Positions 2,652 through 64,000 of a DNA stretch of 64,000 bases are shown here, piece after piece (position 1 is the first letter of the stretch; every line of letters begins with the position of its first letter). The DNA comes from Deroplatys truncata (taxonomy: Eukaryota > Arthropoda > Insecta > Mantodea > Mantidae), in contig CM060988.1 of NCBI GenBank assembly GCA_030765065.1, positions 199,204,565-199,268,564 of the forward strand. Direction: 5' to 3'. Both the position numbers and the translations under genes were made by a program. The notes beneath the pieces were generated by a model, which was not told where the DNA came from, made no database searches, and saw nothing but the letters and a program-made list of their open reading frames with translations.

Positions 2652-4525
2652 CTCATTTTTACTTTATCTACTACGCACCTATACCCCTGCCGCTGTATCT
2701 TTGCACTTGACAGTTCGTGTGGCTTCACGTAAGGTTGGCTACATTGCAGTTGCAACGTTGCCAGAGTGGCTAGTAAACAACAACAGCTGATTTTTCTCCT
2801 TTCTATCGTGTCTAAGCCGCATACAAAAAGTGTACGCAAGTAGCGAACATCAATGAATAATAACTATTTCGTATTATTATTGTTAATTGAAAATAAGCGA
2901 TATAAGCAGCTTTGGTATGGTCGGATACTCCTTTCTATGATAATAGGCATAAATGTGTCTACGTATGACGTCTAATCGGAAATCATCAAGATTTGTGACT
3001 GGACGAGGCTGCTTTCTTTTCTTCCCTGGAGTTGATAGAAATACCTGTTGCATTCCAGATGGTTCAGGAATTTTGTCCTCTTTCTCTTGGAGTTTCACTC
3101 CCTTGTGTATAGGTAACAGTTCTCGTGCTTACCCAAGAGCTGCTGCAGTTCGTTGTACGGCTTTATCAGCAGGAATAGAGGGATTGCCATGAAGTTTTAC
3201 GTACTCCTTTTCCTGTTCAAAGAATTCCCGGGTTCTGCTTAAAAAGTTCCAATGCCTGACTATTAAGTGGCACACCTCGGCGCAAAGGATTTCCACTTCG
3301 TGAATCATCACTCAGTGATCGACGTCGTTTTTCAGATATTGTCACACTTAATTTTTGTTTAAATAAATAATATGAATGAAATATGTATAAAATAGATAAA
3401 TATATATATGTATAAACGAACAATAACAAAACTATTAAATAATAACCACAAATATAAATAATGAATATGTAGCTTGCAAAGAACAACTCGACGCTCGTGC
3501 TAGAGATTCACAAACTGAAGCACGTGGTTGGGAATAGTTACATCCAGCAACAGAGCCGATTCTAGTTCCGGTTCCGCTTTGTCATCGGCCATCCGGAATG
3601 CTGCCTTGTGATTGGCTTAGGAAGTCAAACGGTTGAAGCTTTTCATCTGTTTTTTTGCGAGTGTACCAACTTAAACGCTAGCTGTCAAGTGCAACGTTAC
3701 AGCGGCGGGGCTATAGTAGGTGGAGAAGGTATTGCATTCCACCAAAAAATAATTTGGATAATGAGATTTCACTGGTCTTGAGGCCCCCTGAATCCAAAAA
3801 AGGTCATTGTGTCTATGAACAGCATAACTCAAAAAGAAAAACCCCCAGTGTATACCAAATTTGTTATTTAAGTTGAGTGTCTTCCAAAGATGGCAACACG
3901 CAGATTTTCAAGAAAATTCCCCAACCCAAATTATCTTTATGCGAAACATTTTTTTAAAATCTTTTATTTTCTCAAAAATAACTCTGATGATTTTGATTAA
4001 AGTACAATATATTTCAAGATATATTTTTTATTTATCATGTAAACATCTAAATTTTCTGGGAATAGCCTGTAAAGTCCGTTCATTTGGAAGGGGTTTGGTA
4101 TGACTGGTAAACTTAAGGGATAGACAAAAATGCACCACACAGAAAATAATATATATATATTTTTGTTTGTTTTTTGGTGTGTGCCATGAAGTATTACCAA
4201 GATATCTGTTATTCTTGGTTTGAATTTTTCAATATTTTGTCATTTTTTAAAAATGCTGTGAGTATTAAGTTTTTTCTTATGAAGTCATAGAAGGAGAATG
4301 GAATTTTAAGGCCAACATATGACCCAGTTTTTAAATATCTGACTTGATTCAGTTTCCTGTATCCCACTTGTTCCTACAATGAAATGTGTAATGAAATATT
4401 TCTGCAAAAGTTTACCTCTATTAACATGAAGTAGATAGGAAAGTTAGCTTTTGTAAGAACAGTTCATAGTAGCTATATAAAAATAGTAGGCGATAGCAGA
4501 TAGAGAAAGTCATGTGAATGTAACA
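2652..4525 (-). repeat. Repeat family A, copy A, split by a Tc/mariner-type insertion
   Basis: The reverse complement matches the family copies at 21345-22150 and 48900-49740 over most of about 0.8 kb, including AGAGCCATTTTTGAGA-type and CTCTGTTCA-type blocks. The left outer piece (2652-2681) and 3714 onward join into a sequence that matches the copy at 22110-22150, so 2682-3713 is a later insertion. There is no coding capacity. The ends share the short inverted motif ACTTTCTCTACT. Class unknown; probably a non-autonomous DNA element. Confidence 0.7.
2682..3713 (-). mobile_element. IS630-Tc1-mariner-type transposon, internally deleted
   Basis: Terminal inverted repeats of 32 bp (left begins TACCCCTGCCGCTGTATC, right is its complement at 3682-3713) match at 28 of 32 positions. 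The element is flanked by TA on both sides (2680-2681 and 3714-3715). On the - strand, pieces of a transposase N-terminus are readable: SIPADKAVQRTAAALG at about 3129-3180, then STPGKKRKQPRPVTNLDDF and VIRRHIYAYY at about 2940-3035. The TPGKKR..TNLDDF..IRRHIY pattern is one I associate with insect DDE transposases that carry a winged-helix N-terminus. No catalytic domain follows, so the copy is not autonomous. Confidence 0.75.
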
Positions 4526-4551: not shown

Positions 4552-4734
<183 letters not shown>

Positions 4735-4987: not shown

Positions 4988-6234
4988 TGAGGGCATTTCA
5001 ATAAGTACCCATGTTTCAAAATAGATGGTGTTGCTATCATGTACTGTCATTTGTTAAGATGTCGCCAAAACAAATTTGGTATTGATTCATAGCTTAGTTT
5101 GGATTTGGCAGGCATTTCAGTTAGTCATCAACATGTTTTTGTTAAATTGGAAAAACTGCAGTATCATTCAGTGATTTGCTTTTTACTTTTGGATGGGAAA
5201 ACTTGCGAGGAGATAAAAGTGAAATTGGTTGCTGTTTATAGGAACCTTATGCCATCAATGACAACAGTTAGATATTGGTTCAATGAACAAATGTGGTTGA
5301 ACATCCATTTTTTATAAGTGCCCAGGATGCCCAGCAGATGTGATTACCAAGGAAATCATTGAAAAAGTCCACAATATGATTATCGCTGATCGTCAAACAA
5401 AAGTTCACAAAGTGGCAGAGAGGCCTAGATGTGTCGATGGGAATGCTAATTCATATTTTGCATGATAAATTGGAGATGAAAAAGTTGTCGGCCCGATTCC
5501 TCACAGTGGACAACAGTGGATGCAGCTTTCAACTTTGAAGTTGTGTTTGGAGCAATTTAAGTGAAATCTGAGGGACTTTTTGCATTAAGTTGTCACCGTT
5601 GCTGAGACCTGGATTCATCATTATACTCCGGAAACCAAGCAACTATCTGAACAATGGATTGCTTCCAGTGAATCTGCTCCAAACATGGTCCCATCAGCCA
5701 AAGAGGTGATGGGAAGTTTTTGGGATGTGAAGCGCATCATACTCATTGATTTCTTAGAAAAAGAAAAAACGATAACTGGACAATACTACAGTGAATTATT
5801 GTACCGATTTGACAAGAAGTTGAAGGAGACACAGCCACATTTGGCAAAGAAGAAAGTGCTGTTTCACCACAACAATGCACCAGCATATTCATCCGGAGTT
5901 GTTGCTGCCAAACTGCATGAATTGCATTATGAATTGCTGCTGCACCCTCCATATTTGCCTGGCCTGGCTTCCTGCAATTTCTTCTTCCCATAAATGAAGA
6001 AATGCCTCGCAGGAAGAAAATTTAGATCAAATGAAGAGCTCATCATCAAGACAGAGGCGTATTTTGCAGAGCTTGACAATTCCTATTTTTTTGAAGGGAT
6101 TAAAAAATGGCAGGAACGTTAGGAGAAGTGTGTATCCCTAAAGGAGACTATGTTAAGAAGTGAATAATCTGTGTTTGGAAAAAAAAAATGGCACCTTCAT
6201 TCCTAATACGGATATACTTATTGAACTGATCTTG
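4988..6234 (+). mobile_element. Mariner (D,D34D) transposon, decayed copy 1
   Basis: The element is about 1.25 kb, flanked by TA (4986-4987 and 6235-6236), with degraded inverted ends sharing TTCAATAAGTA. The + strand transposase is readable in pieces. A helix-turn-helix region has ICFLLLDGKTCEEIKVKL and MTTVRYWFNE (5160-5290). ETWIHHYTPETK (about 5608-5643) matches the first catalytic motif, but VDE has become VAE. IILIDFLEKEKTITGQYYSE and KKVLFHHNNAPAYS follow. The second Asp is Asn (HNN) and the third-Asp motif YSPDLAPSDFF is degraded to YLPGLASCNFF, so all three catalytic positions are lost. It lies in sense orientation 265 bp after an mnb exon. Confidence 0.85.
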
Positions 6235-10089: not shown

Positions 10090-11239
10090 CGAGGGTCACT
10101 AGATAAGTATTGAGGCAACAAATAATGAATACCCATAAAAATGTTTTTTTTGTCCCAGTTTCTCAAAGTATTTTCCCTGGCACCATATGCAGCATTCCAT
10201 CCTCTGGAAGCATCCATGCCACTCAGTTTCTGGCATGCAGATAACTCCTCTTATGCTGCAACTGCTTCTTTGGAGCTAGAATTGATGATCTCAAATTTCG
10301 GCTCCTCACTGTAGGGAACAGGAAGAAATCACATGGTGCCAGGTCGGGACAATAGGCTGGATGAGTCAATAGTTTTGCCTCAGTTCCTTGCAAAAACACC
10401 ACTGTTACATTAATGGTGTGAACTGATGCATTGTCATGATGCAACAAAATGCCCTTTAGTCGTTTCTTTGGATGCTTTTCTTGGATTTTTTGAAACTTTT
10501 TCAGAAGGCAGACTTCTGTATACCACTTTGCAGTGACAGTTTTCTGATTTTCGAGCACAGTGGTTGCCATGTGACCACTTGTGGAGAACAAAGAAGCAAT
10601 CATTTTCTTTCCTGCACTCCTTGCTCCCTTGAGTTTGGTAGATGGTTGATCATCTGGGAAAACCCAAATGGAGGACTGGCATTTGGTTTCTGGTTCAGAC
10701 TGATATATCCATGTTTCGTCATCCTTAATAATATCTAAAACACGCAAGGCTTTCCACCGTTAAATTTTTGCTGCATTTCTTGGCACTGTTCCACCCTGTG
10801 GCGCTTCTAATTATGGGGCACCCATCTTAAAAATTTTTTTACACGAAGGAGCTCTTGAAGATTGGTTGAAACACTCGGTGAACTAATTGCTAATGCCAGC
10901 TCAATGTCCTTGAAGGTTAGTGTTGGATCTTCCCTAATCATTGTTTCAACAGAGGTGATGTTTTTTTCAGTCGCTACTGTTGGTCTGCCACTCTTGTATT
11001 CATCTTTAAGAGATTGCCACCCCCTCTTTGAATTCTCCAAACCAGCAGAACACAGTAGCATGTGAAGGAGAATAGTCTCCAAAAGCTCCCCTCAAACACT
11101 CAAGTGATGCGTTTCATTTAAGCCACATCTGAAATTGTACAGGCTGATTTTTTGTGCCCTGATGCACTTATCTGTATTCGCAGTAGCTGGACAAATCCAT
11201 TTATCTTCTGGGAGGAGTGTTGGGTCAGGATGGACAGAA

Positions 11240-17287: not shown

Positions 17288-17824
<537 letters not shown>

Positions 17825-17852
17825 TGAACGGTATAACTCAAACATGAAAAGT

Positions 17853-18520: not shown

Positions 18521-18989
18521 TATTTGCATACCTAATAAAATGTATATCTTGAATTTTCTGAGAGTAGCCTGTTAAGACCCCTTCATTTATAACTGGTAAA
18601 CCAAAAAGAGATAAACAAAAACTTACTACATTAAAAATGTCGATCTTGTTAAACACAATTTATGTTGAATTTCATATTTTTGGGATTAACCATTTCTGGG
18701 ATATTTATTGCTGAGAGTTTTAATTTTCCAATATTTTTATATTTATTGAAGTCTGATTTCATCATTCAGTGGAAGTATGGAATTTGAAAGCCAGCCATAA
18801 TGACCCTCACTATTGCTTCACTCTTCTCTATCCCTCTTGCATCTACAATGAAATGTGTAATGGAACTAGTTCTGCAAATGTTTATGTCAACATGAAGTAA
18901 ATAAAAAGATACACTTCTCTAAGAATAGTTTGTAGACGGGGTATAAAAGTAATTGGGTGGAGAAAGTCAGAATGTAACACAACACATTT

Positions 18990-19699
18990 TTAAGTTATTC
19001 TCTTCACAGACTGATTGACGCACACACATACACATGTGGATGTTTTTCTAATAATAGGAACTCGGAATATGTGTTTCTAGTGAAATTTAGTAGGGTTCAA
19101 ATGCAAGTACTTCTTCTGAGTGCTGCAGAAAGTTAAGGATTATTTGTTTAAGGTGTTACATTTAAGAATTATGAATTTTATAGCAAATATATTTAAGAGT
19201 TTGAAGTTACAGAAAATTGTTCCTAAAAGGAAATGTTCATAATCCAGTGTATGTAGCCATAAATTAGAAAAACTGTGTTTGCTAGTTTGAAGAATTAGAA
19301 GGTGAGTTTTTGAAAATGACGAGAGCTGATAAAGAGTTATCAAATGTTTAGCAGAATATTGAATGAATGTTCAAGAGATGTTGTATACAGTGCAATTAAT
19401 CAAATTTCTGCTGCATCTGTGAAGTGTTTTTATTTATAATTGCCACATATTTCGTTAATACAAAACAAAATTTAGATTGTTCTCTTGCAGGTAGATGGTA
19501 GCACTTAACCAGGAGTAAACTTTATTGGAGAGGAAAAAAATGTCTTTCTTCCATTTCTGTAATTCTCTGCTCATGTTTTCTGAACTTTTCAAAACTGTCA
19601 TTTAGTTAAATACTTGCTTGTTTAATATATAGTGTTAAGGTGCTGATATTTTGCTTGAGTTTTATAAATTGCTCTTTTTGATTCATTTGATAGATTTAA
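18990..19699. other. Intronic sequence, nothing recognised
   Basis: AT-rich sequence of the long mnb intron. No coding, RNA or repeat signal that I can support. Confidence 0.5.
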
Positions 19700-20128
19700 T
19701 GCTCAGTTTCACCAACCACATTTATCATTATGTATCATCATAGGTATTTGATGACCATTAAACTTTTGACAGCTCATTAAAAGCAGAGTTACATTTCTTC
19801 AGGTGTGTTTATCATTTTGATTGCTGTAGCTTCTGTCAAATCATTCACATTCATTGCTTTTTAGTTTAAGGTTATGTACTCATGTGAAAAGGTGTTGCAG
19901 TTTATGGATGCTTTCGACACTGAAATATGGTTCGAATTGACAGAAAATATGGGTCCAAAACGTGTAATTCGGCTTAGAGATAATCACTTTTGTAAAAATG
20001 GATGTTGTGAAGATTGTGATACAATATAGGTTATCAAAACAGGTAATACTAAAAATATTGGTCAAAATTTAACCAAGACTGGAATACCGTACCAATAGAA
20101 ATGACCACTTCTGTCAACACAACAGCTG

Positions 20129-20557
20129 CAAGCCCACCTTTGTGGTATGGGGGGTAGCACATCTGCCTCACATTCAACAGGTCCTGAGTTATGTAGATAA
20201 GGTTTTTTTTGGGGGTTTTGCCTTATCCAGAAGATGATTGTTGAGTAACGGGTCACTAACGTTTCCATATTGAACATCCCTGACTGCCCTGTCAAATGCT
20301 CCCCTATCCTCGTGGACAAGTTAGGACAGAAGGTTCCGTGCCAGGGAAGAAGTGTTCTCTCCTCAAAGCACATACACTGCGCACCACTGTTCACTGTGCC
20401 AGGCACTGCTAACCTACAAGATGAAAGGAAAATGTGTGGTGGTATAAAATCCTACCAATCAGGGAAAACCATGAAAAACCCCAAGGTAACATTGACCGGT
20501 CCAACAAAAATCAAATACAAGACCACCTGAATGCGAGCTTGAACCATCCTGCTTGAT
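20129..20557 (+). mobile_element. SINE-like retroposon with target duplication
   Basis: It interrupts Harbinger copy 2 and is bounded by an 11-bp direct repeat (ACAACAGCTGC at 20118 and ACAACAGTTGC at 20558). The alignment to Harbinger copy 1 resumes directly after it. The 5' part (TGTGGTATGGGGGGTAGCAC, ATCTGCCTCACATTCAACAG, GTCCTGAGTT) looks tRNA-like. The body includes GAAAAACCCCAAGGTAACAT and TGACCGG. The 86- and 114-residue open frames across it are incidental. Confidence 0.6.
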
Positions 20558-21154
20558 ACAACAGTTGCTACTAACTCTTGTAAATTGTTTTTCAGAGATC
20601 ATCTGATAATGTTAACGGTGTCTGCTACGGAATTTCAAACTCCCCATATACATGATAAAAGTATCTGATGCAATTGCTTCGTTACACCAGCCACACTGTT
20701 TAACAGAGTTGTTATATACTTCTTCCTAATGCAAGTTTACTTGACCAGGTTATGCAACATCAGTTGAGAAGGTTTTCTTTTTCCTGAATTGGCTGTGCAA
20801 CAGAATGTCTGGCTAAGAACATGAGGTAGCACAGCATGTGTATAAACAAAATATACAGGCTAAACCAGACCAGCTGTAACAGTAATTTATTTTGAAAAAT
20901 ACACCATTAAAACTTTCAAGACAAAAATATTTATGACTAAAGCACATGTGATCTTTCACTTGATTTCATCAATCAGCTATTACCAGAAGTGGGGTCAGTG
21001 GTATATCACTTCAAAATTCCAAATTGGAGTGTGGGTCAAATAGGCAACCATCAGCTAGAGCTCTTCAAAACAAACAACTTTCATAGGAACTGTTTTTATT
21101 AAATCAGTTAATTCTTCCCTTCAGAACATTTTTAGCTGGCTACACAATTGTAAA

Positions 21155-22500
21155 AATATTGTCATCTTAACAGATTGTAAAGCTGCAATCCAAGCAATAT
21201 TTACAACTACATGACCAAAAATGGAAAAAATTATGATGAAAGTACAAATTCAAAGATTTAATAAAAAAGAAGTGGTCCTACAATGGATCCAGCCCATTGT
21301 GGTATACAGGGAAATGAAAGAGCAGATATATTAGCAAAAAATCTGTGTTACACTTACGTGACTTTCTCTACTCTTGTACAAACTATTTTTACAAACGCTT
21401 ATTCTCCATCTACTTCATGTTAATCGAGATGTTAATCTTATTGCTAATTTTCTTGTAGATGCAAGGGGAATATGGTAGGTTTTAAGTGATAGTCAAATGT
21501 TTTAAGAGTTGGTTGCTATGTTGAGTATTGCATTCTCTTTGCATTACCAGGACAAAAATAAATGAATAACAAATTCCCATTTGAGAAAAAGCATAAGTGT
21601 TGGAAAATTTAAGGGAATAACAAGCAATGTCTCGAAAATGGTTCACTCAACAAAAAAATATATATATGACATAAATTATGTATTTTAATGCGCTCTACAT
21701 TTTTTGTGTAGTAAAATTTTGTCTATCTCATGGTTTACCAGTTACACAAAAGTTGTTCACAATGAAGAATAGTTTTGGAGACATTCCCAGAAAATTCGAG
21801 ATATACAATTCATTTGCCATAAAAATGTCTTAAACTTATGGTATTTTATTCAAAATCGTCAGAGCCATTTTTGAGAAAATTAAAATTTTCGAAAAATGTT
21901 CCACGTAAAGGGTAATCTGGGGTGGGGGGATTTTCTTGAAAACCTTTGTGTCGCATCTCTGGAAGATAATCCGACTGTTCGTTTCTGAGTTATGCTGTTC
22001 ACAGACAGACACACATGGACATGTTTCCAAAAATGCTTTATATGCATTCAGTGAACCTCAAAACATGTATTTCCTGTGAAATCTCCGTATCAAATTTTTG
22101 GGTGGAATGCAATTCTTCTCCTACTTACTATACGTAGTAGAGAAAGTAAAAAGGGTTGTAAAATTAAGCAAAGAGTATTGACCAAGCTATCTTATGAATC
22201 AATAAAAAGAATAATAAAGTACAAAGAGAATGCCAACTATAATTCCAAGCTGATTGCAACAATTGGAAACAGAAAATTAAAAATACTTTGGATTATCCCT
22301 CTGTTGCCCCTGAATAACCATGCAAAACTGCAGTAGTTATGTTTAGGCTTATTATTGAACATGATTATCTGACTAAATATCTCCACAGAATTAGCATATT
22401 ACCATCTCCAGATTGCTACTCTGCCGCCAAAATATAGAAATGGGCATGAACATCTATCAGGATATGACATCCAATTATTGGGGAGCAAGATGGATTGTAT
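21155..22500 (+). mobile_element. LINE fragment: RNase H domain and 3' region, interrupted
   Basis: 21155-21345 reads NIVILTDCKAAIQAIF, then KKEVVLQWIPAHCGI and QGNERADILAKN. These are the first and last motifs of the RNase H domain found in Jockey/I/R1-type LINEs; the middle is compressed. After a repeat family A insertion (21345-22150) the LINE continues: SYESIKRIIKYK at about 22190, then MFRLIIEHDYLTKYLHRISI and LPSPDCYS at about 22340-22430, the usual C-terminal phrase before the CCHC motif. Frames are broken. The RT is not present. Confidence 0.75.
21345..22150 (+). repeat. Repeat family A, copy C
   Basis: The block from GTGACTTTCTCTACT at 21358 to TAGTAGAGAAAGTAAAA at about 22150 is shared with 48900-49740 in the same orientation and with 2652-4525 and 17770-18985 in the opposite one. 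The termini carry the inverted motif ACTTTCTCTACT. It splits the LINE RNase H region, so its insertion is younger than the LINE. Confidence 0.75.
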
Positions 22501-23667
22501 TCAGAGCATTAGCTGGATTTTTATCAATCCGTGCTCTTTGAAGGAGAAAGGCATATTGTCTGTGGCTAGGCTGCAGTTGTCCAGTTGCTTGTACACGAAC
22601 AGCAAGATGTCTGATGAGCACGTAATAATAATAAATAATAATAAATTTTTATTGCCATTCAGCTTATTACAGCAATAGTCAACGTCAAAAATAATTACAA
22701 TAAATATATGATTACATAGTTGCATATTACATATATTATATAATTTCTCTGTGCTATTACATATTAACAAAATTGCAATACAAATTACAGTGTATTGCAT
22801 GATTGATACATTGTGCAGAGCTAATATAAATATAATCATCAGAAAAGCAATAAATAGTCCAGGAATAAAGTACAAGGGTAGTTGATATTACTTACTGTTA
22901 AGATATATTTTCAAAATATTCCGGTAGTGAATAGTATGGGTTGTTTAGCAATCTGTCATAAAGTTTATGTTCAACAGCCAATAGCATTGACATAACAAAA
23001 CTATCGCTATTTGTAGTAGAAGTGAGGTATTTGTGCTAACTTTTATACTTATTTCACAGCAACAAAACACTTGATTGTCAAGGCCATATGAGCTTCCTTT
23101 GCCAACATTAATTTTCTTTTATATGAATGGCATTGCTGTCTGCATATCTGGGATTCAGGTGCACTGTCTTTTTATTTGTTTTGAGAGTTTTATCTAATGG
23201 TATGCTATTTGACCCTTACTTCCATTTGAAATTTTAAAGTGTTATACCACTGAACCCACTTCAGGTTATGGCTGATTAATGAAATCAAGCTCCAATGAAA
23301 GTTCACGTGTGTTAGTTATAAACATTTTTGTCTTGAAAATTATAAGGCCATATTCACTGTTACAGGTGGTCTAGTTTACCTTGTATATGTGCTACATGTC
23401 TCTCTTGTTTTCAGAGTTAGAACTGCAAAGAGACATTGCAGACATTTCTATTGCCAACCTTCACATGCTCGTGTTACAGGTTATCATAGTTGAAATATTT
23501 TCATTTTGGCGTGATTAATGTCAACAACACTGCATAAGTTGAATGTTCCTCAAGCTATAGGGTTATTAATACAACTAGTGGCAGGCAGAGCACAGTAGGT
23601 TACATGAGAAAGAGACAGCGAATCGTTGGGCGTAAAATGTTTACTGAATGCATTACTGAAAACTAGG

Positions 23668-24240: not shown

Positions 24241-24608
24241 GAACAATAATAATGCTAGATAACACATAAACTAATACACAATGTTAATAAGGAAGTATAT
24301 ATAACATGGCCAGCCCTTGAGAATTGTGCACTCCAGCTGACTAGATAACTGCATGCCCAGACGTTATCGTTTCATGGAAAAGTAGCCACACACTACTGGC
24401 TGCCAGTTCTATTAACAACCCTGTTGATTGGTTGATGATCGGTGAAACTGAGCATAAGTCTTACATATGGAATATAAACTTCTCCTTACTTTATATTTAT
24501 AATTTTCATTGGTTTTAAACAGGCATGGCAGCATGTTAGCTTACAGAATGACATTTATTTAGAATAGAGACTGAAAATTGTGAAGCTCAATGTCCTTATG
24601 TTGCTTTA

Positions 24609-27600
24609 CAAAGGTAGTTCAGAAAGTTCTCAACCTACACATGAGGTATTAATATTAATTAAGTTCTCAAGTAAGATCTTTTAGATGGTGTAGTATGCAA
24701 TTTCATACATGTACTTTCATTTGTTTGGTTGCCATGTGCTGCAAAATGAACAAGATGAGGTTTCCTCCAAAAATTGATAAAATTGAATGCTGTTTAGTGA
24801 GTCAATTTTTTGTTTCAAATTATTTAATGCCTACCAAAATAAAAAAAGAAATTGGATTCCATTTTGGAAGCTTCTTCATAATTTTCTATCGTGAAGAAAT
24901 TGGCTGCAGAGCTTAAGCATAGCCGTTCCTCCATTTTTTATAATGAACATCGAGTTACTACTGCAACTGAAGAAAACATTGCAAAAATCCACAATACTGT
25001 GTTAAATGGCAGAAGAGTTTGCTGACCAAGATCTCATTAGATAGTGTCTGGAATATTGACACATGAGAAGCCTCACAGTGTGATGAGTGCCACGTTAAAT
25101 GACAGACAAGCTTGCTGACATTACCAGAGCTCATTAGATAGTGTCTGAAACATTTACACATGAGAAAGCTTACGTGTGATAGTGTCATGTTAAACGACAG
25201 ATAAGCTTGCTGACATTACCAAGATCTCATTAAATAGTGTCTGGAACATTTATACATAAGAAAGCTTACATGTGATAGTGTCATGTTAAATGACAGACAA
25301 GCTTGCTGACATTACCAAGATCTCATTAGATCGTGTCTGGAACATTTACACATGAGAAAGCTTACATGTGATAGTTTCATGTTAAATGACAGACAAGCTT
25401 GCTGACATTACCAAGATCTCATTAGATAGTGTCTGGAGCATTTACACAAGAGAAAGCTCATGGTGGGATTAGTGTCATGTTAAATGACAGACAAGCTTGC
25501 TGACATTACCAAGATCTCATTAGATAGTGTCATGGAACATTTACACAAGAGAAACCTCACAGTGTGATGAGTGCCATGTTAAATGACAGACACCCTTGCT
25601 GACATTACCAAGATCTCATTAGATAGTGTCTGGAATATTTACACATGAGAAAGCTCATGGTGGGATTAGTGTCATGTTAAATGACAGACAAGCTTGCTGA
25701 CATTACCAAGATCTCATTAGATAGTGTCTGGAACATTTACACATGGAGAAAGCTCACATGTGATAGTGTCATGTTAAATGACAGACAAGCTTGCTGACAT
25801 TACCAAGATCTCATTAGATAGTGTCTGGAACATTTACACATGGAGAAAGCTCACATGTGATAGTGTCATGTTAAATGACAGACAAGCTTGCTGACATTAC
25901 CAAGATCTCATTAGATAGTGTCTGGAACATTTACACATGAGAAAGCTCACATGTGATAGTGTCATGTTAAATGACAGACAAGCTTGCTGACATTACCAAG
26001 ATCTCATTAGATAGTGTCTGGAACATTTACACATGGAGAAAGCTCACATGTGATAGTGTCATGTTAAATGACAGACAAGCTTGCTGACATTACCAAGATC
26101 TCATTAGAGAGTGTCTGGAACATTTACACATGGAGAAAGCTCACATGTGATAGTGCCATGTTAAATGACAGACAAGCTTGCTGACATTACCAAGATCTCA
26201 TTAGATCGTGTCTGGAACATTTACACATGGAGAAAGCTCACAGTGTGATGAGTGCCATGTTAAATGACAGACAAGCTTGCTGACATTACCAAGATCTCAT
26301 TAGTTAGTGTCTGGAACATTTACACATGAGAAAGCTTACATGTGATAGTGTCATGTTAAATGACAGACAAGGTTGCCGATATTACCAAGATCTCATTAGA
26401 TTGTGTCTGGAACATTTATACATGAGAAAGCTCACAGTGTGATGACTGTCATGTTAAATGACAGACAAGGTTGCTGACATCACCAACATCTCATTAGATG
26501 GTGTCTGGAACATTTACACATGAGAAAGCTCACAGTGTGATGAGTGCCATGTTAAATGACAGACAAGGTTGTTGATATTACCAACATCTCATTAGATAGT
26601 GTCTGGAACATTTACGCATGAGAAAGCTCACAGTGTGATGAGTGCCATGTTAAATGACAGACAAGCTTGCTGACATTACCAAGATCTCATTAGATCGTGT
26701 CTGGAACATTTATACATGAGAAAGCTCACAGTGTGATGAGTGTCATGTTAAATGACAGACAAGCTTGCTGACATTACCAAGATCTCATTAGATAGTGTCT
26801 GGAACATTTACACATGAGAAAGCTTACATGTGATAGTGTCATGTTAAATGACAGACAAGGTTGCTGATATTACCAAGATCTCATTAGATAGTGTCTGGAA
26901 CATTTACACATGAGAAAGCTCACAGTGTGATAGTGTCATGTTAAATGACAGACAAGCTTGCTGATATTACCAAGATCTCATTAGATAGTGTCTGGAACAT
27001 TTACACATGAGAAAGCTCACAGTGTGATAGTGTCATGTTAAATGACAGACAAGCTTGCTGATATTACCAAGATCTCATTAGATAGTGTCTGGAACATTTA
27101 CATATGAGAAAGCTTACATGTGATAGTGTCATGTTAAATGACAGACAAGCTTGCTGATATTACCAAGATCTCATTAGATAGTGTCTGGAACATTTACATA
27201 TGAGAAAGCTTACATGTGATAGTGTCATGTTAAATGACAGACAAGCTTGCTGATATTACCAAGATCTCATTAGATAGTGTCTGGAACATTTACATATGAG
27301 AAAGCTTACATGTGATAGTGTCATGTTAAATGACAGACAAGCTTGCTGATATTACCAAGATCTCATTAGATAGTGTCTGGAACATTTACACATGAGAAAG
27401 CTTACATGTGATAGTGTCATGTTAAATGACAGACAAGCTTGCTGATATTACCAAGATCTCATTAGATTGTGTCTGGAACATTTACATATGAGAAAGCTCA
27501 CATGTGATAGTGTCATGTTAAATGGCAGACAAGCTTGCTGATATTACCAAGATCTCATTAGATTGTGTCTGGAACATTTACATATGAGAAAGCTCACATG

Positions 27601-28347
27601 TGATAGTGTCATGTTAAATGACAGACAAGCTTGCTGATATTACCAAGATCTCATTAGATAGTGTCTGGAACATTTATACATGAGAAACCTCACAGTGTGA
27701 TGAGTGTCATGTTAAATGACAGACAAGCTTGCTGACATTACCAAGATCTCATTAGATTGTGTCTGGAACATTTACACATGAGAAAGCTTACATGTGATAG
27801 TGTCATGTTAAATGACAGACAAGCTTGCTGATATTACCAAGATCTCATTAGATTGTGTCTGGAACATTTACACATGAGAAAGCTTACATGTGATAGTGTC
27901 ATGTTAAATGACAGACAAGCTTGCTGATATTACCAAGATCTCATTAGATTGTGTCTGGAACATTTACATATGAGAAAGCTCACAGTGTGATGAGTGTCAT
28001 GTTAAATGACAGACAAGCTTGCTGATATTACCAAGATCTCATTAGATTGTGTCTGGAACATTTACATATGCTTGTGAAGCACATCCAAATGAACATCTTA
28101 CAGGAGAGCTTGGACATGTTCAGATGCAAATCGACCAGTATCAGTATATCACTTGTTGTGACATTGACTCACCATGCGAAGATCATAAGTCACACATACT
28201 TTTATTTTGGGACAGATCATTTTATTATTGGTCCAGTTATATAGAGTTGAAAGAAGAAATGCAAGAAGAAAGAAAGGAAAGAAAAAACAGCTGATTAAAA
28301 AATTTTACTTTTCTTTTTCTGACCGAGAGCTTTCTGAACAACTGTCA
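24609..28347 (+). mobile_element. Mariner copy 4 carrying a 3-kb internal minisatellite
   Basis: The ends are inverted repeats sharing GTTCAGAAAG and TCTC at equal distance from flanking TA dinucleotides (left TA at 24607-24608, right TA at 28348-28349). The left part reads as a mariner N-terminus in pieces: MPTKIKKEI (about 24825), KLAAELKHSRSSIFY-like sequence and TEENIAKIHNTVLN (24966-25007). The continuation, normally the second HTH region ending GMRKLSARWVP, is here amplified into about 32 tandem units. After the array 280 bases remain before the right end, without recognisable DDE motifs. It cannot code for a transposase. Confidence 0.75.
24990..28066 (+). repeat. Minisatellite 1, about 32 units of about 96 bp, derived from mariner transposase
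   Basis: Unit landmarks in order: CATGTTAAATGACAGACAAG, CTTGCTGACATTACCAAG, ATCTCATTAGATAGTGTCTG, GAACATTTACACATGAGAAA, GCTCACATGTGATAGTGT. Spacing between successive CATGTTAAATG starts (25867, 25963, 26060) is 96-97. The first unit is continuous with mariner coding sequence (VLNGRR follows TEENIAKIHN). Variants with CACAGTGTGATGAGTGCCATG read HMRKLTV..VPC, matching the mariner phrase GMRKLSARWVP with CGA-TGG decayed to TGA-TGA. The rightmost third is more homogeneous than the left end. Confidence 0.9.
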
Positions 28348-28349
28348 TA

Positions 28350-31830: not shown

Positions 31831-32110
31831 TGCTTGTGCCACCACACATCTCTCACACCTTAAGTTTAAAGTTTAGTGACATTCCAAACTGAGGTTTCTA
31901 CTGACTTCTGTGCAGGCTTTCTCAGAGATTTCTTTGGACCTCATTCTAACTTTTCTCCAATTGTCACTGATATTTTCCCCTGTAAAAACACTTTTTTTTT
32001 CTTTTCCCATTTCCCTAAATCTATTCACAAAATTATGAACTGTTTCTCTGTGAGGTGCACAAAAAGTAGGGAATCTATCTCGCTTCCTTTACAAGAGTTT
32101 GTTGTCATGT
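31830..32110 (-). mobile_element. Tc1-like transposase fragment next to minisatellite 2
   Basis: The - strand reads FCAPHRETVHNFVNRFREMG (about 31996-32055), then TGENISD and, with frame changes, GPKKSLRKPAQKSVETS (about 31890-31945). These match the linker and second helix-turn-helix of insect Tc1-like transposases (PSR.TV..LVNKFR.TGS ... VLTEE...IG..L...PRKSLRRLAQ..GVS). The region immediately N-terminal, which should read RVFIYDSY..T.SCREVR, is exactly where the minisatellite begins. Inactive. Confidence 0.75.
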
Positions 32111-35092
32111 AGGAATTATACATGAAGATTCTGTGTGCTGGCATTATAACAACAGGGAATCTGTCTCACTTCTCTACAAGAGTTTGTTGTCACATATGGA
32201 TCACACATGAAGATTCTGTGTGCTGGCATTATAACAACAGGGAATATGTCTCACTTCTCTACAAGAGTTTGTTGTCACATAGGAATCACACATGAAGATT
32301 CTGTGTGCTGACATTATAACAACAGGGAATCTGTCTCACTTCTCTACAAGAGTTTGTTGTCACATATGGATCACACATGAAGATTCTGTGTGCTGGCATT
32401 ATAACAGCAGGGAATATGTCTCACTTCTCTACAAGAGTGTGTTGTCACATAGGAATCATACATGAAGATTCGGTGTGCTAGCATTATAACAGCAGGGAAT
32501 CTGTCTCACTTCTCTACAAGAGTTTGTTGTCACATAGGAATCATACATGATTCTGTGTGCTGGCATTATAACAGCAGGGAATCTGTCTCACTTCTCTACA
32601 AGAGTTTGTTGTCACATAGGAATCACACATGAAGATTCTGTGTGCTGGCATTATAACAGCAGGGAATCTGTCTCACTTCTCTTCAAGCGTTTGTTCTCCC
32701 ATAGGAATCATACATGAAGATTCTGTGTGCTGGTATTATAACAGCAGGGAGTCTCACTTCTCTACAAGAGTTTGTTGTCACATAGGAATCACACATGAAG
32801 ATTCTGTGTGCTGATATTATAACAACAGGAAATCTGTCTCACTTCCCTACAAGCGTTTGTTGTCACATAGCAATCATACATGAAGATTCTGTGTGCTGGT
32901 ATTATAACAACAGTAAATCTGTCTCACTTCTCTACAAGCATTTGTTGTCACATAGGAATCATACATGAAGATTCTGTGTGCTGGCATTATAACAGCAGGA
33001 AATCTGTCTCACTTCTCTACAAGAGTTTATTGTCACATAGGAATCACACATGAAGATTCTGTGTGCTGACATAACAACAGGGAATCTGTCTCACTTCTCT
33101 GCAAGCATTTGTTGTCACATAGGAATCATACATGAAGATTCTGTGTGCTGACATTATAACAGCAGGGAATCTGTTTCACTTCTCTACAAGCGTTTGTTGT
33201 CACATAGAAATCATACATGAAGATTCTGTGTGCTGGTATTATAACAGCAGGGAATCTGTCTCACTTCTCTACAAGAGTTTGTCGTCACATAGAAATTATA
33301 CGTGAAGATTCTGTGTGCTGGCATTATAACAGCAGGGAATCTGTCTCACTTCTCTACAAGAGTTTGTCGTCACATAGAAATTATACATGAAGATTCTGTG
33401 TGCTGGCATTATAACAACAGGGAATCTGTCTCACTTCTCTACAAGAGTTTGTGGTCACATAGTAATCATACATGAAGATTCTGTGTGCTGGCATTATAAC
33501 AGCAGGGAATCTGTCTCACTTCTCTATAAGAGTTTGTTGTCACATAGGAATCACACATGAAGATTCTGTGTGCTGATATTATAACAACAGGAAATCTGTC
33601 TCACTTCCCTACAAGCGTTTGTTGTCACATAGCAATCATACATGAAGATTCTGTGTGCTGGTATTATAACAACAGTAAATCTGTCTCACTTCTCTACAAG
33701 CATTTGTTGTCACATAGGAATCATACATGAAGATTCTGTGTGCTGGCATTATAACAGCAGGAAATCTGTCTCACTTCTCTACAAGAGTTTATTGTCACAT
33801 AGGAATCACACATGAAGATTCTGTGTGCTGACATAACAACAGGGAATCTGTCTCACTTCTCTGCAAGCATTTGTTGTCACATAGGAATCATACATGAAGA
33901 TTCTGTGTGCTGACATTATAACAGCAGGGAATCTGTTTCACTTCTCTACAAGCGTTTGTTGTCACATAGAAATCATACATGAAGATTCTGTGTGCTGGTA
34001 TTATAACAGCAGGGAATCTGTCTCACTTCTCTACAAGAGTTTGTCGTCACATAGAAATTATACGTGAAGATTCTGTGTGCTGGCATTATAACAGCAGGGA
34101 ATCTGTCTCACTTCTCTACAAGAGTTTGTCGTCACATAGAAATTATACATGAAGATTCTGTGTGCTGGCATTATAACAACAGGGAATCTGTCTCACTTCT
34201 CTACAAGAGTTTGTGGTCACATAGTAATCATACATGAAGATTCTGTGTGCTGGCATTATAACAGCAGGGAATCTGTCTCACTTCTCTATAAGAGTTTGTT
34301 GCCACATAGGAATCTTACATGAAGATTCTGTGTGCTGGCATTATAACAGCAGGGAATCTGTATCACTTCTCTACAAGCGTTTGTTGTCACATAGGAATCA
34401 TACATGATTCTGCGTGCAGGCATTATAACAGCAGGGAATCTGTCTCACTTCTCTACAAGCGTTTGTTGTCACATAGGAATCATACATGAAGATTCTGTGT
34501 GCTGGTATTATAACAGTAGAGAATCTGTCTCACTTCTCTACAAGAGTTTGTGCTCACATAGGAATCATACATGAAGATTCTGTGTGCTGGCATTATAACA
34601 GCAGGGAATCTGTCTCACTTCTTTACAAGAGTTTGTTGTCACATGGGAATCATACATGAAGATTCTGTGTGCTGGGATTATAACAACAGGGAATCTGACT
34701 CACTTCTCTACAAGAGTTTGTTGTCACATAGGAATCATACATGAAGATTCTGTGTGCTGGCGTTATAACAGCAGGGAATCTGTCTCACTTCTCTACAAGA
34801 GTTTGTTGTCACATAGGAATCATACATGAAGATTCTGTGTGCTGGCATTATAACAGCAGGGAATCTGTCTCACTTCTCTACAAGCGTTTGTTGTCACATA
34901 GGAATTATACATGAAGATTCTGTGTGCTGGCATTATAACAGCAGGGAATCTGTCTCACTTCTCTACAAGCGTTTGTTGTCACATAGGAATCATACATGAA
35001 GATTCTGTGTGCTGGCAGTATAACAGCAGGGAATCTGTCCCACTTCTCTACAAGAGTTTGTTGTCACATAGGAATCATTCATGAAGATTTTG
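32060..35092 (-). repeat. Minisatellite 2, about 35 units of about 85 bp, derived from a Tc1-like transposase
   Basis: Unit landmarks on the + strand: CATACATGAAGATTCTGTGT, GCTGGCATTATAACAGCAGG, GAATCTGTCTCACTTCTCTA, CAAGAGTTTGTTGTCACATA, GGAAT. On the - strand the unit reads FMYDSYVTTNSCREVRQIP, the counterpart of FIYDNYMETDSCREIRRFA in the Tc1-like fragment at 24100-24220. The array joins the matching transposase at 32060. Since 85 is not a multiple of three, no long frame runs through. Some units have 3-6 base deletions (for example ATGATTCTG at 32548). Confidence 0.88.
32779..34302. repeat. Tandem 762-bp duplication of nine units inside minisatellite 2
   Basis: Unit variants recur in the same order at an offset of 762: CTGATATTATAACAACAGG at 32811 and 33573, a CTGACATAACAACAGGG deletion variant, ATTATACGTGAAG, and GTGGTCACATAGTAATC at 33451 and 34213. 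I saw essentially no differences over the block until about 34300. It is a recent segmental duplication within the array, or an assembly duplication. Confidence 0.85.
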
Positions 35093-36774
35093 TGTGCTAA
35101 AGTGTACAGACGTTTTGGTATTATTACGGCGCTAACACACTGTAACACTGAAACATGTGATCTCACAGTGTATCAACCTCTGTACAGCACAGACTTTGTG
35201 TCAACTGATTAGCTGGCACAGGTAAGGGAACAGCACCGGTTAGAAACAATGCAGAGCATGGCAAGCAATTCCCTGTAATATGGCCTGCATCAAAACAAAG
35301 TCTCTGTAGTTCCCCTACCTAACCAGGCACAGCAGTAGTGTAGCACTAACTGGTGTTGAACTTCAGAACTATGATTATTTGTAATTTTATTACATTTTCA
35401 CTAAAATACCTAGTTGTAATCTGATTCTTCTGGTGTAGGGTGGTTGTTGCACAATAGCCATAATGTTGTTTTACGTAAACACAGGGCTGTATCAAAATTT
35501 AGGTGGAATTATCAAGAATTTCCTGACCATGTTCACAGAACGTTTTTGTTCTTTGCAGTAGATTAGCCTGCTCCAAAGGTTTGGAAGTATACATTTATGT
35601 TATCTACATCCTGTAAAATGCAATATGGAGATTCTGTAGCCAACCTAACCTACCCATCTGCTTTGCTATTCTTTCAACCTGTAGGTGTTATTTTATTATT
35701 ATAGGCATGGAGTATAGTTATTTTTTAATATGCATTTAATTCACTAATGTTGATTTTCACATTGGCATACCAGGTGAAACTAGCCGAATGGCCTTCTTCT
35801 TACTACTTTTTTAATATAGCACATGCTCGTATTGTATCTTGATTTGGATTTATTAAGAACAAAAGAAGTACTTGCTATTTGCCACACCTCTTCAATTTCC
35901 ACCAAGATAACTTTTTAAATTTTTCCAAATACCAGGCGAAAGTAATCAGTGACAATAAACTTTCATGACTTGACTTCAGTCAATCTGGCATTTATTTGAA
36001 AAAAAGGTTGGTCATGGAACAGGCATTCATATGCACTATTTAAAGTTGGTACTGTCCAGCTATTTTGATACTTCAACCAGCTGTTAAATGAGCAACAGTG
36101 TAATTAACATAATTATTGTTAATTGCCCAAAAATAGTATGCTGTACACATGTGTTAGTTGTACAATAGAACTCGACTTTGTCTTGTATTTTCAAACTTTT
36201 CCTCGTTTCAGTTATAAACCGCAGCACCATTATATTGCAATCATTAGGGAATAAAAGCATAACTGATGTCAAGTAATTAAGTGAGGATGTTATTCCAATT
36301 ATTATTTAGATTTCTTTATACCTCTATATCCTATTTTATTGCCCAAGTCCTCGGTGAACAGTGTTAATAATTCTGGAGAATACTAATGAATGTAACATGA
36401 TATTTAGAAGCAGAAAGTGTGTTTATTTCAGCTGTCCTTAGAAGAGACGATGGCCCCCTGCAAATTGGAAAATGACAGGAGTGTATATAATGTTATTGCA
36501 GTAAACATGTCGTGAGTGGTCCCAGGGAAATAATAAGTGCATAGCATCTGCCAATGGAGAAGAGTTTGACATCTCTGGACCTTGGAAACAGACTTGTGCA
36601 TGTCCAATTTTAAAACCTTGTTGACACATTTCAAAATGTTTGAAATTAGTGTAAAATTAGAGTAGTTGTGTGGGAACCCTATGAATATATTTAATAGCCA
36701 TTAGAAAGGAATACAGCTGTAATGGAATGCAGGGCAGTAGCCAAAATGCTGTTAATGTGTTTATAGATTGCTGT
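35093..36774. other. Intronic sequence, nothing recognised
   Basis: Begins with a somewhat GC-richer 250 bases beside minisatellite 2 (GGTATTATTACGGCGCTAAC) that may be the 5' flank of the Tc1-like element. No inverted terminus could be paired. The remainder is AT-rich with no supported feature. Confidence 0.4.
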
Positions 36775-56646: not shown

Positions 56647-57883
56647 CGAGGGTGGTCTGAAAAGTTTCCGACCTAATAAAGATACAAGACATTTTTTCAG
56701 AATTTTTTTTTTTTTTCAACATAGTCTCCTTGTAACTCTACACACTTCTCCCAGCGATGCTCCCATCTCTGTAACCCGTCCAAATAGTACTCGGCGTTTT
56801 TCTCTGCAAAATAATTGTTCACGAAGGTGCTTGCCTCTTCATTTGACGAAAATCTCTGTCCTCCGAGCGCAATTTTCAGATGAGGGAACAAAAAGAAGTC
56901 GCTTGGGGCTAGATCTGGTGAGTAAGGCAGATGGTCAAGCAGTTCAAACCATAATTCGTGGATTTTCACCATTGCAACCGCTGAGGTGTGTTGTCTTGGT
57001 GAAACAGGATTTTCTTTTTCTGCAAATGTGGCCGTTTTTCCGCAAGTTCAGCTTGTCAATTAATGATGCGTAGTATGCTCCTGTAATGGTTTTTCCTTTT
57101 TGAAGATAATCGATTAAAATAACTCCATGATATCCCAAAAAACAGTCGCCATCACTTTCCCAGCCGAAAACAGTTTTTGCTTTTTTTGGAGCCGGTTCCC
57201 CCTTTGCAGTCCACTGTTTGGACTGTATTTTTGTTTCGGGCGTATAATGGTGTATCCAAGTTTCATCTACAGTAATTAATCGGCGCCATAACTCGGATTT
57301 ATTGCGCCTAAATTGCATTGGAAATGTTCATTCGAACATGTTTTTGGTCAAATGTGAGCAAACGCAGCACCCAATGCGCAGACAGCTTTCTCATGTCTAA
57401 ATGTAGATTTAATATGTGACAAACACGTTCTTTTGACATGTTCATAGCCTCTGCTTCTTTCACTTTAATTCGGTGGTCATCTAGCACCATTTGGTGAACT
57501 TCGGCGATGTTTTCATCGGTAGTTGTAATTTTTGGACATCCCGAACGTTCGTCTCCCAAGCTCTTACGGCCACGTTTAAATTCAGCTGCCCAAAATTTCA
57601 CTTTGGTAAATGATGGTGCAGAGTCCCCATACACAGAATCCAACTCATCTTTGATTTGCGTAGGCATATTGCCTTTCAAAAACAAATATTAATGACAGCT
57701 CGATATTCGATTTTGTCCATTTCATAAAAACACTCAAACTACTGTTACATAACAACTGAGCATCCAAAATGTCTGAAACTTTGGTGAGTAACTGTCAACA
57801 GATGAACAACGAAATTCACTAGCTTTTATTTACGAGTGCTGCCATCTTCATGTTGAGGTCGGAAACTTTTCAAACCACCCTCG
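56647..57883 (-). mobile_element. Mariner (D,D34D) copy 5, best preserved in the window
   Basis: A 1237-bp element with 28-bp terminal inverted repeats (CGAGGGTGGTCTGAAAAGTT, then TCCGACCT) that differ at one position, flanked by TA on both sides (56645-56646, 57884-57885). The - strand transposase runs from about 57685 to 56697 in three overlapping frames: HTH region (GNMPTQIKDELDSVYGDSAP, VKFWAAEFKRGRKS), TTDENIAEVHQMVLDD, TVDETWIHHYTPETK (first Asp), HGVILIDYLQKGKTITGAYY, ILFHQDNTP (second Asp) and YSPDLAPSDFFLFPHLK (third Asp). At least two or three small indels, one just after the second Asp, break the frame. A typical mariner transposase is about 345 residues, which the summed frames reach. 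Confidence 0.92.
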
Positions 57884-57885
57884 TA

Positions 57886-58317
57886 TAAGGGCACCAAGAA
57901 GAGACATGACATTGTCTTGATCATATCTATAAATGGTTTTATATACACTCATTTGACATTTAACTTGGTACACTTTTCTGTGTTGAATATTCATGCACTC
58001 TGCTGTTTTAGTAAGCAAAAAAAATAGATTTTAAGTGTTTATACCAGAAATTAAGTCATCTTTTCGGTAGCTTGAAAATTAGTAATATTAATCTACAGGA
58101 AATCAAGTGTTCACTTGTTTTATACATTGACAAAGAAAAATTTTAAGCTAAAGCTAGCCTCTAAGCAAACACTGAATCAAGGCCAAGTGTAAGCTTTTGT
58201 TATACATAGGGAAACAAGGTTATACTTAGAAAATTGCCAGATAAAGCTAAGACTTGATTTTGACTTTATTCTAGTACTATCATCTTGCCAACTCGCATGA
58301 GAGATACAAAGCTTAGT
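57886..58317. other. mnb intron end, nothing recognised
   Basis: AT-rich intron sequence between mariner copy 5 and the last exon. No supported feature. Confidence 0.45.
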
Positions 58318-58341
58318 CTTCTCTCTCTCTCTCTCTCTTTC
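58318..58341. repeat. (CT)n microsatellite
   Basis: CTTCTCTCTCTCTCTCTCTC followed by TTTC lies about 80 bases upstream of the last mnb exon. It may reinforce the pyrimidine-rich region before the acceptor, but the distance is long. Confidence 0.8.
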
Positions 58342-58422
58342 TCTGTATTTGTGTTGAGTGTTATATTTGCAGATTGTTATTTGTAAGTAATGAATGTGCT
58401 TGTTGTGCAGTGCTGGTTTCAG

Positions 58423-58865
58423 GGAGTCGAGCCAGATCGGATCCCTCGACTGCGCTTCCAGGAAGTGCACACCAGCACAGCAGTTTGTACGGCAGCAACA
58501 ACTACACTCAGAGCGCTGCCACTCAGACAGCAATGGAATGTGAGAGCTTCCCCCCGTCAGCTGCTGTAACCACCCTGCGCCCCACACACTTTCATCATGG
58601 ACATGCACACCACCGAACCTCTCGTCAGCAGCAGCAACAACAACGCTATGCCCCATCTTCCTTGCCTTTGGAGCTAGTGGGGCATCAGCCAGGCTTGGAC
58701 TGCACCCAAACTGGTAGCCTAAACCTTCCCTTAACGGGTAACTTCTACCCCTCGGTTGGCACATCCTATATGATACCAGACTCTGGGGGTCAGAGCAACA
58801 GCGACAGGGAGGACAGCCCCATGGTGGGCGTCTGCGTCCAGCAGAGCCCTGTTGCCAGTCATTAA
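58423..58865 (+). CDS. mnb: minibrain / DYRK1 kinase, last coding exon (C-terminal tail)
   Basis: The exon continues the phase-1 exon ending at 17750. Two in-frame acceptors exist: TGTGCAG at 58410 (adding VLVS) and GTTTCAG at 58422 (reading GSRARSDP). I chose the second because human DYRK1A has GRARSDP here; the first is equally usable. The tail has GRARSDP-type sequence, an AMECES phrase like human AMDCET, a short His-rich patch (HFHHGHAHH) where vertebrates have a long poly-His tract, six Gln in a row, and ends REDSPMVGVCVQQSPVASH, almost identical to the human C-terminus REESPMTGVCVQQSPVASS. Stop TAA at 58863-58865. About 146 residues, shorter than the human tail. A 195-residue open frame on the opposite strand is a shadow. 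Confidence 0.95.
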
Positions 58866-62914: not shown

Positions 62915-64000
62915 CACTAGCATTTCAAACAACCGTTAATGGCACTAACACTTCAAACAGAACCATCTTCATCAACACTAATATGTGAAATAGATCCATA
63001 ACAGTACCACTTCAAAACAGACATCGTCATTGGGCACTAACATTTCAAACACAACCATTATCATCAGCGCTAACACTTCAGCACTACCATTAATCATCTG
63101 CACTAGTGCTTTAAACCAATCTTTAATCCCAGGAATACTATTTCAAATACAATTGTTATTGACAGCAGTAACACTGAAAACAACCACCATTATCATTAGC
63201 ACTAACACTTCAAACACAACCATTATCATCAGCACTAACACTTCAACATAACCATTACCATCTGCACTAGCACTTCAAACACAATCTTTAACCATAGGAC
63301 TACTATTTCAAATACAATTGTTATTGGCAGCACTAACACTTCAAACACAACTATTATCATCAGCACTAACACTTCAAATACAACCATTGTCATCAGCACT
63401 AACATTTCAAACACAACCATTATCTTCATCACCAACACTTCAAACACAATCTTTAACCATAGGACTACTATTTCAAATACAATTGTTATTGGCAGCACTA
63501 ACACTTCAAACACAACTATTATCATCAGCACTAACACTTCAAATACAACCATTGTCATCAGCACTAACATTTCAAACACAACCATTATCTTCATCACCAA
63601 CACTTCAAACACAATCTTTAACCCTAGGACTACTATTTCAAATACAATTGTTATTGGCAGCACTAACACTTCAAACAACCATTATCTTCAGCACCAACAC
63701 TTCAACACAGCCATTATCTTCAGCACCAACACTTCAAACACAGTCTTTAACCCCAGGTCTACTATTTCAAATACAATTGTTATTGGCAGCACTAACACTT
63801 CAAACACAACCATTATCTAAAGCGCTAACACTTCAACACAGTCATTATCTTCAGCACCAACACTTCAACACAGTCTTTAACCCCAGGTCTACTATTTCAA
63901 ATACAATTGTTATTGGCAGCACTAACACTTCAAACACAGCCATTAGCTTCAGCACCAACACTTCAACACAATCATTCTCTTCAGCACCAACACTTCAACA
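62915..64000. repeat. Minisatellite 3, 33-bp unit with a 165-bp higher-order period
   Basis: The unit is GCACTAACACTTCAAACACA followed by ACCATTATCATCA. Diverged unit types (for example CTATTTCAAATACAATTGTT and ACAATCTTTAACCATAGGAC) recur in fixed order: ACAATCTTTA at 63281, 63446 and 63611, a period of 165 bp or five units, then about 130 bp (63740, 63870). It continues past the right edge. Since 33 is a multiple of three, the - strand has a long open frame (63235-63678) of VFEVLVL repeats; it is a by-product with no sign of being a gene. Confidence 0.9.

Follow-up and report, generated by a model that had tools for sequence, protein, structure and literature searches.

Many tandem repeats derived from transposable elements (TEs) are listed in a review of the subject, most of them from ends or other non-coding parts and some from open reading frames (ORFs) (PMC9659126). 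Its examples include the LINE-1 ORF2 satellites Pvc20 of Phoca and PROsat of Phodopus and the chicken HinfI satellite from partial CR1 ORF2 (PMC9659126), and it cites 7276 human TE-derived minisatellites, 2663 of them with Alu (cited in PMC9659126). In Chenopodium, the satellite CficCl-61-40 derives from the tnp2 transposase domain of the CACTA-like element Jozin (PMC7320549), and in Xenopus, miDNA4 is a Tc1/mariner miniature inverted-repeat transposable element (MITE) with an internal tandem repeat (cited in PMC12628747 and in Table 1 of PMC9659126). Here we analyze a window of 64,000 nucleotides from the mantis Deroplatys truncata (contig CM060988.1, positions 199,204,565 to 199,268,564 of the forward strand; coordinates below are those of the window), in which a decayed mariner element at 24609-28347 encloses a minisatellite apparently made from the helix-turn-helix (HTH) block of its own transposase gene, as a preliminary description made from the letters of the sequence had proposed. 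We consider it very probable that the array is a neutral fossil of a dead mariner, whose own deleted HTH block was duplicated and then expanded to approximately 32 copies.

The element is bordered directly on both sides by TA, the mariner target-site dinucleotide, at 24607-24608 and 28348-28349, and the bounds first assigned to it thus proved exact. It was compared with another mariner of the window, copy C (56647-57883, minus strand), which lies outside the element and is whole at 1237 bp. The terminal inverted repeats (TIRs) of copy C agree at 26/27 positions, and its reading is spread over several frames, with the HTH block unbroken and the HTH region in one open frame (Pfam HTH_48, E 1.6e-05). 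Mariner TIRs are commonly about 27-30 bp long. The ends of the element are TA-flanked in a register identical to that of copy C: the 27-bp left TIR (24609-24635, plus strand) matches the end of copy C at 18/27 positions, and among 9,941 TA-preceded 27-mers only the two ends of copy C itself and this left end reach at least 18. The 27-bp right TIR (28321-28347, minus strand) matches copy C at 15/27, a level attained by 11 of the same 9,941 27-mers. Among 11,852 TA pairs spanning the array, the ends of the element are the only pair with at least 18/27 identities.

Between the left end and the array lies decayed 5' mariner DNA that codes for the N-terminal part of the transposase (24609-25000, plus strand). 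None of 1000 shuffles aligned as well as these 392 bp with the 5' DNA of copy C. In a frameshift-tolerant protein alignment of 24761-25001, none of 200 shuffles did so against the N-terminal part of copy C, and 3/200 did so against the protein P0001, to which the match is less good; the reading of TEENIAKIHN, ahead of the array, as mariner N-terminal coding DNA is thereby upheld. Short matches of this left flank to another mariner-like copy of the window, copy A, were among the matches listed in a first DNA comparison. The coding flank ends in TEENIAKIHNT, which runs straight and in frame into the first unit of the array, and the sequence TTATEENIAKIHNTVLNGRR likewise continues in frame into that unit.

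Tandem Repeats Finder (TRF) places the array at 25025-28070, with a period of 96, 31.4 copies and 94% matches. Delimiting the units by cutting at the GTTAAATGACAGACAAG-like anchor yielded 31 full units and one partial unit of 93-99 bp on the plus strand (25001-28071), and the 3-kb minisatellite of the preliminary description is therefore real; its units run head-to-tail, with lengths inside the range of roughly 10-100 bp typical of the class. The full units measure 96 (13 units), 98 (8), 97 (6), 99 (2), 95 (1) and 93 bp (1), and differ from one another by 6.9% on average. Adjacent units differ by only 5.3%, a value as low as which was found in 0/5000 permutations. Two sets of units are identical (u22/u23/u24 and u08/u09/u11), and the longest exact repeat within the array spans 272 bp. 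The first unit, u01 (25001-25093, plus strand), is contiguous with the coding flank and is the most diverged of all, its mean difference to the remaining 30 full units being 18.2%. This pattern of divergence is characteristic of recurrent exchange between nearby units combined with decay at the edge.

The origin of the unit was assessed by aligning its full length with the homologous 122-nt stretch in the DNA of copy C, using dinucleotide shuffles and 1947 other blocks of the window (the element and copy C left out) as controls. The preliminary description had named a comparison with shuffled sequence as the one that could overturn its reading; carried out at the DNA level, it gave the 98-bp form of the unit a score of 77.6, vs 29.6 +/- 6.2 for the shuffles (maximum 58.0), such that the unit surpassed 5000/5000 of them, and 0/1947 other window blocks reached its score (maximum 47.2). 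The 96-bp form scored 64.4 (0/5000 shuffles, 0/1947 window blocks) and u01 58.6 (1/5000 and 0/1947). In this alignment the 98-bp unit corresponds to the 122-nt block of copy C minus two gaps of 11 and 13 nt, and for this reason the unit is not the intact 32-codon block first described; it is a deleted, stop-bearing version of a block of approximately 41 codons, reduced from 122 nt to 98. The best match of the unit in the window outside the array covers 20/21 nt of copy C (57404-57384, minus strand, E 8e-4; the next match has E 1.4) and falls, in the coding strand of copy C, at its codons HLDMRKL. Alignment of copy C with Mos1 places the block in the DNA-binding half of the protein, and we take it to be the second HTH. 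The DNA-to-DNA comparison with copy C was the fourth scoring scheme tried, with one scoring setting used, and was decisive for the mariner origin of the unit. Together, the DNA match to copy C, the left flank and the best window match at homologous codons support the view that the internal HTH block of a mariner transposase gene became a tandem array inside the element, in keeping with what had been proposed. The unit is homologous to internal transposase coding DNA and u01 directly continues the parental coding fragment, both of which are marks of a Jozin-type origin.

The units also carry a record of the state of the gene at the time it was copied. The junction of the second deletion is present in 32/32 units; over the first deletion all units align without gaps, and u01 has its own 5-nt gap just beyond. 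The tandem stop TGATGA occurs in 9/32 units, u01 included, at the position of the codons HW of copy C; many mariners have RW where copy C has HW. Because the first and later units share deletions and stops, these losses predate the amplification, or at least its spread through the array, and the transposase gene was dead before amplification or at least before that spread. The 98-bp form, which shares features with u01, looks ancestral to the 96-bp form.

Based on these observations, we propose that a mariner inserted at a TA, then lost function and decayed. The marks of this decay are still visible: the reading frame is broken and interrupted by stops, the HTH block has two small deletions, and both flanks and one unit together amount to 761 bp, vs 1237 bp for copy C. 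After this decay, a stretch of approximately 98 bp would have been duplicated in tandem. Copy C reads CTGC|GTTTG at the relevant position, the u01/u02 junction CCAC|GTTAAATG and the 5' boundary CTGT|GTTAAATG, and comparison of the three suggests a breakpoint at a short microhomology (GTT), the original state being judged from copy C. Unequal exchange or slippage during replication would then have enlarged the duplication to approximately 32 copies, as indicated by the greater likeness of neighbours, the groups of identical units and the strongly diverged edge unit. The array would thus have arisen neutrally, as a side effect of repair and replication at a fossil transposon, with no protein of note and no evident function.

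Several results weigh against this account. At the protein level, comparison of the unit with single proteins in three alignment ways gave mixed results. In the plain frameshift alignment, the number of shuffles out of 150 that did as well as the 98-bp unit was 4 for copy C, 4 for P0001, 35 for Mos1 and 133 for SETMAR (7, 4, 28 and 137 for the 96-bp unit), and the control, an 85-bp unit from another array of the window, gave 18, 10, 145 and 82, respectively. When the unit was fitted end to end, the counts for the 98-bp form were 55/800 against four proteins, 31/800 against copy C and 206/800 against copies A and C (77/800, 14/800 and 67/800 for the 96-bp form). By the same test u01 was matched by shuffles at 364/800, 364/800 and 460/800, and the reverse strand at 597/800, 634/800 and 703/800. 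A local test with one gap cost gave 50/1000 (98 bp) and 44/1000 (96 bp) against the copy C protein, 0/1000 for each of the two forms against P0001, and 57 and 188 of 200 for the reverse strand. Neither the 47-aa piece of the element nor its 97-aa read-through was assigned to a mariner family by Pfam, and a PDB search with the pieces of the element gave one chance match, to a xylanase (E 0.89).

The right side of the element adds to these difficulties. The left and right ends of the element are identical at 18/27 positions, and 131 of 1,679,000 TA-flanked pairs in the window reach the same level. The decayed 3' part (28072-28347, plus strand), which starts at about KHIQMNI and finishes in the TIR, resembles mariner only weakly and is not convincingly mariner by itself: over its whole 276 bp, 163/1000 shuffles aligned as well with copy C at the DNA level, and 12/200 did so for 28072-28230 read as protein. 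Taken in portions, the first 60, 80 and 120 nt of this DNA were equalled by 133, 167 and 448 of 5000 shuffles, and the last 70 nt by 82/5000. A DD34D catalytic domain is a feature of mariner transposases, and by eye we did not recognise the triad in the remaining 276-bp 3' part, itself only weakly similar to copy C. Finally, those portions of the account that place the amplification after insertion and in one element only rest on this single locus.

The proposal of a neutral fossil must also be weighed against other explanations. The array could belong to a non-autonomous mariner family, that is, to a MITE with an internal repeat that was born once and moved with the element, as in Xenopus miDNA4. 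The location of the array between paired, TA-flanked ends would suit such a history, and tandem repeats in MITEs, one of them Tc1/mariner, are published (PMC12628747; PMC9659126, Table 1). However, the ends agree at 18/27 positions vs 26/27 in copy C, which makes recent mobility unlikely, the unit comes from coding DNA of the element itself rather than from a captured repeat, and no second array of the unit was found in the window; we regard this origin as unlikely, while allowing it some weight. That an unrelated satellite was inserted into, or captured by, a mariner remnant and resembles the HTH block by chance draws on the modest and uneven protein-level scores of the unit. This is strongly disfavoured, to the point that we grant it scarcely any credence, by the DNA match to the copy C block that 0/5000 shuffles reach, at the place expected after N-terminal coding DNA, and by the contiguity of u01, in frame, with that coding DNA.

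The size and the persistence of the array raise two further alternatives. Assemblies often mis-size long tandem arrays, and the nearby 85-bp array is likewise approximately 3.03 kb long and contains a 774-bp exact duplication, such that the copy number reported here might be an artefact of assembly. Against this, identical units are limited to two groups of three among the 31 full units, and therefore the whole array is not one read copied repeatedly, though part of the copy number could be wrong; on balance we hold an artefactual copy number to be quite improbable. It is also conceivable that the array was kept or amplified for a function, for instance as a source of small RNAs or as an intronic regulatory repeat, since a DYRK1A-like gene, whose downstream exon is a weak match (E 0.031), may enclose it within an intron in the sense direction. 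Yet no long open frame was found in the array (the longest stop-free stretch has 75 codons on the minus strand and 44 on the plus strand), stop codons are already present in the first unit, the edge is decayed as neutral arrays would show, and none of the tests made points to a function. We judge a functional role to be very improbable.

Besides copy C, two further mariner-like copies are present in the window as catalytic pieces, at 5589-5993 (plus strand) and 10223-10759 (minus strand), and Pfam Transposase_1 matches were obtained for copy A (9.6e-14) and copy B (3.7e-07). A DYRK1A-like exon lies within 17288-17827 on the plus strand (a strong match, best E 1.6e-64), an open frame at 58317-58865 on the same strand weakly resembles, in its final part, the C-terminus of DYRK1A (E 0.031), and a likely DYRK1A-like exon at 4603-4730, also on the plus strand, was noticed by eye only. 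The three probably represent exons of a DYRK1A-like kinase gene encoded on the plus strand; if they form one gene, the element would be intronic and in sense orientation. Introns tens of kb long contain transposon remains here. The second array (32068-35098) has an 85-bp unit and 35.8 copies over approximately 3.03 kb by TRF, and the 774-bp exact duplication found in it by an exact-repeat script (32766-33539 and 33528-34301) arose either very recently or through a doubling in the assembly. Neither flank of this array contains an inverted pair of note, no TA pair of at least 18/27 spans it within 5 kb, and no other part of the window matches its unit at E < 1 or was found to hold a parent sequence; the idea that it too lies inside a transposon was rejected on these grounds. 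A 33-bp repeat with a 130/165-bp higher order occupies 63034-63998 and reaches the end of the window, and at 20854-23385 and 18614-21723 TA-flanked inverted pairs cluster in several registers, which suggests the presence of elements, perhaps overlapping ones, that have long inverted repeats.

Searches in other collections confirmed no further mariners in viral contigs (two queries) and found none in genome contigs or phages; among plasmids one record matched. This is a Proteus mirabilis plasmid, NZ_CP135988.1, in which a 125-aa 'hypothetical' frame at 3551-3928 (L001 440-817) resembles the N-terminal part of a mariner transposase. The frame is presumably Himar1-like and perhaps of laboratory origin. 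An 18-base piece of the unit recurs in three viral contigs by chance (matches of 18-20 bases, with nothing else below E 0.4), and a 21-base piece had no match in genome contigs.

Satellite origins are, in our judgement, mostly argued from finished arrays. This locus preserves the array together with its edge unit and parental flank, and therefore the order of events, from gene death through deletions and duplication to expansion, can be read. We tentatively raise the idea, to which we give rather less than even weight, that this is the first mariner transposase-coding minisatellite found between its parental flanks, a frozen intermediate in which a dead DNA transposon of an animal genome gives rise to a satellite, and one that may be hypervariable among individuals; if so, the edge unit, both deletions and the duplication boundary would all be readable in one place. 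No mariner-coding minisatellite was found among the matches listed in the open-access literature, as judged from titles and abstract openings. The general picture of transposons or satellites is unchanged by the finding. Confinement of the array within a single element, as first described, holds for the window, where no second array of the unit was found. To call the array unusual, as was done at the outset, is fair, with the qualification that precedents exist in the CACTA Jozin tnp2 satellite (PMC7320549) and the LINE ORF2 satellites (PMC9659126, Table 1).

Among these systems, the Jozin tnp2 satellite is the closest. CficCl-61-40, as PMC7320549 portrays it, and the present array share a monomer drawn from an internal transposase coding fragment, an array whose first monomer directly adjoins the parental fragment, and a parent element that is a deletion derivative. 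CficCl-61-40 belongs to a plant and to the CACTA superfamily, with a monomer of approximately 40 bp and a family that makes up 3.80% of one genome (PMC7320549), whereas our array is from a mariner, has units of 93-99 bp and was seen at one locus. miDNA4 likewise has a tandem array, one of variable copy number, inside a Tc1/mariner-type element; the miDNA4 repeat was probably acquired by capture (PMC12628747), whereas our repeat comes from coding DNA of the element itself. The LINE-1 and CR1 ORF2 satellites are likewise tandem repeats similar to TE coding DNA, but they stem from retrotransposons and, in the account given of them in PMC9659126, are not described as enclosed in one element copy. 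The human minisatellites are also derived from TE copies, in which a repeat may arise in any region, and the table row for them names Alu and long terminal repeat (LTR) retrotransposons, not mariner (PMC9659126). The process is thus already known elsewhere, and the array in D. truncata is a clear, well-anchored new example of it.
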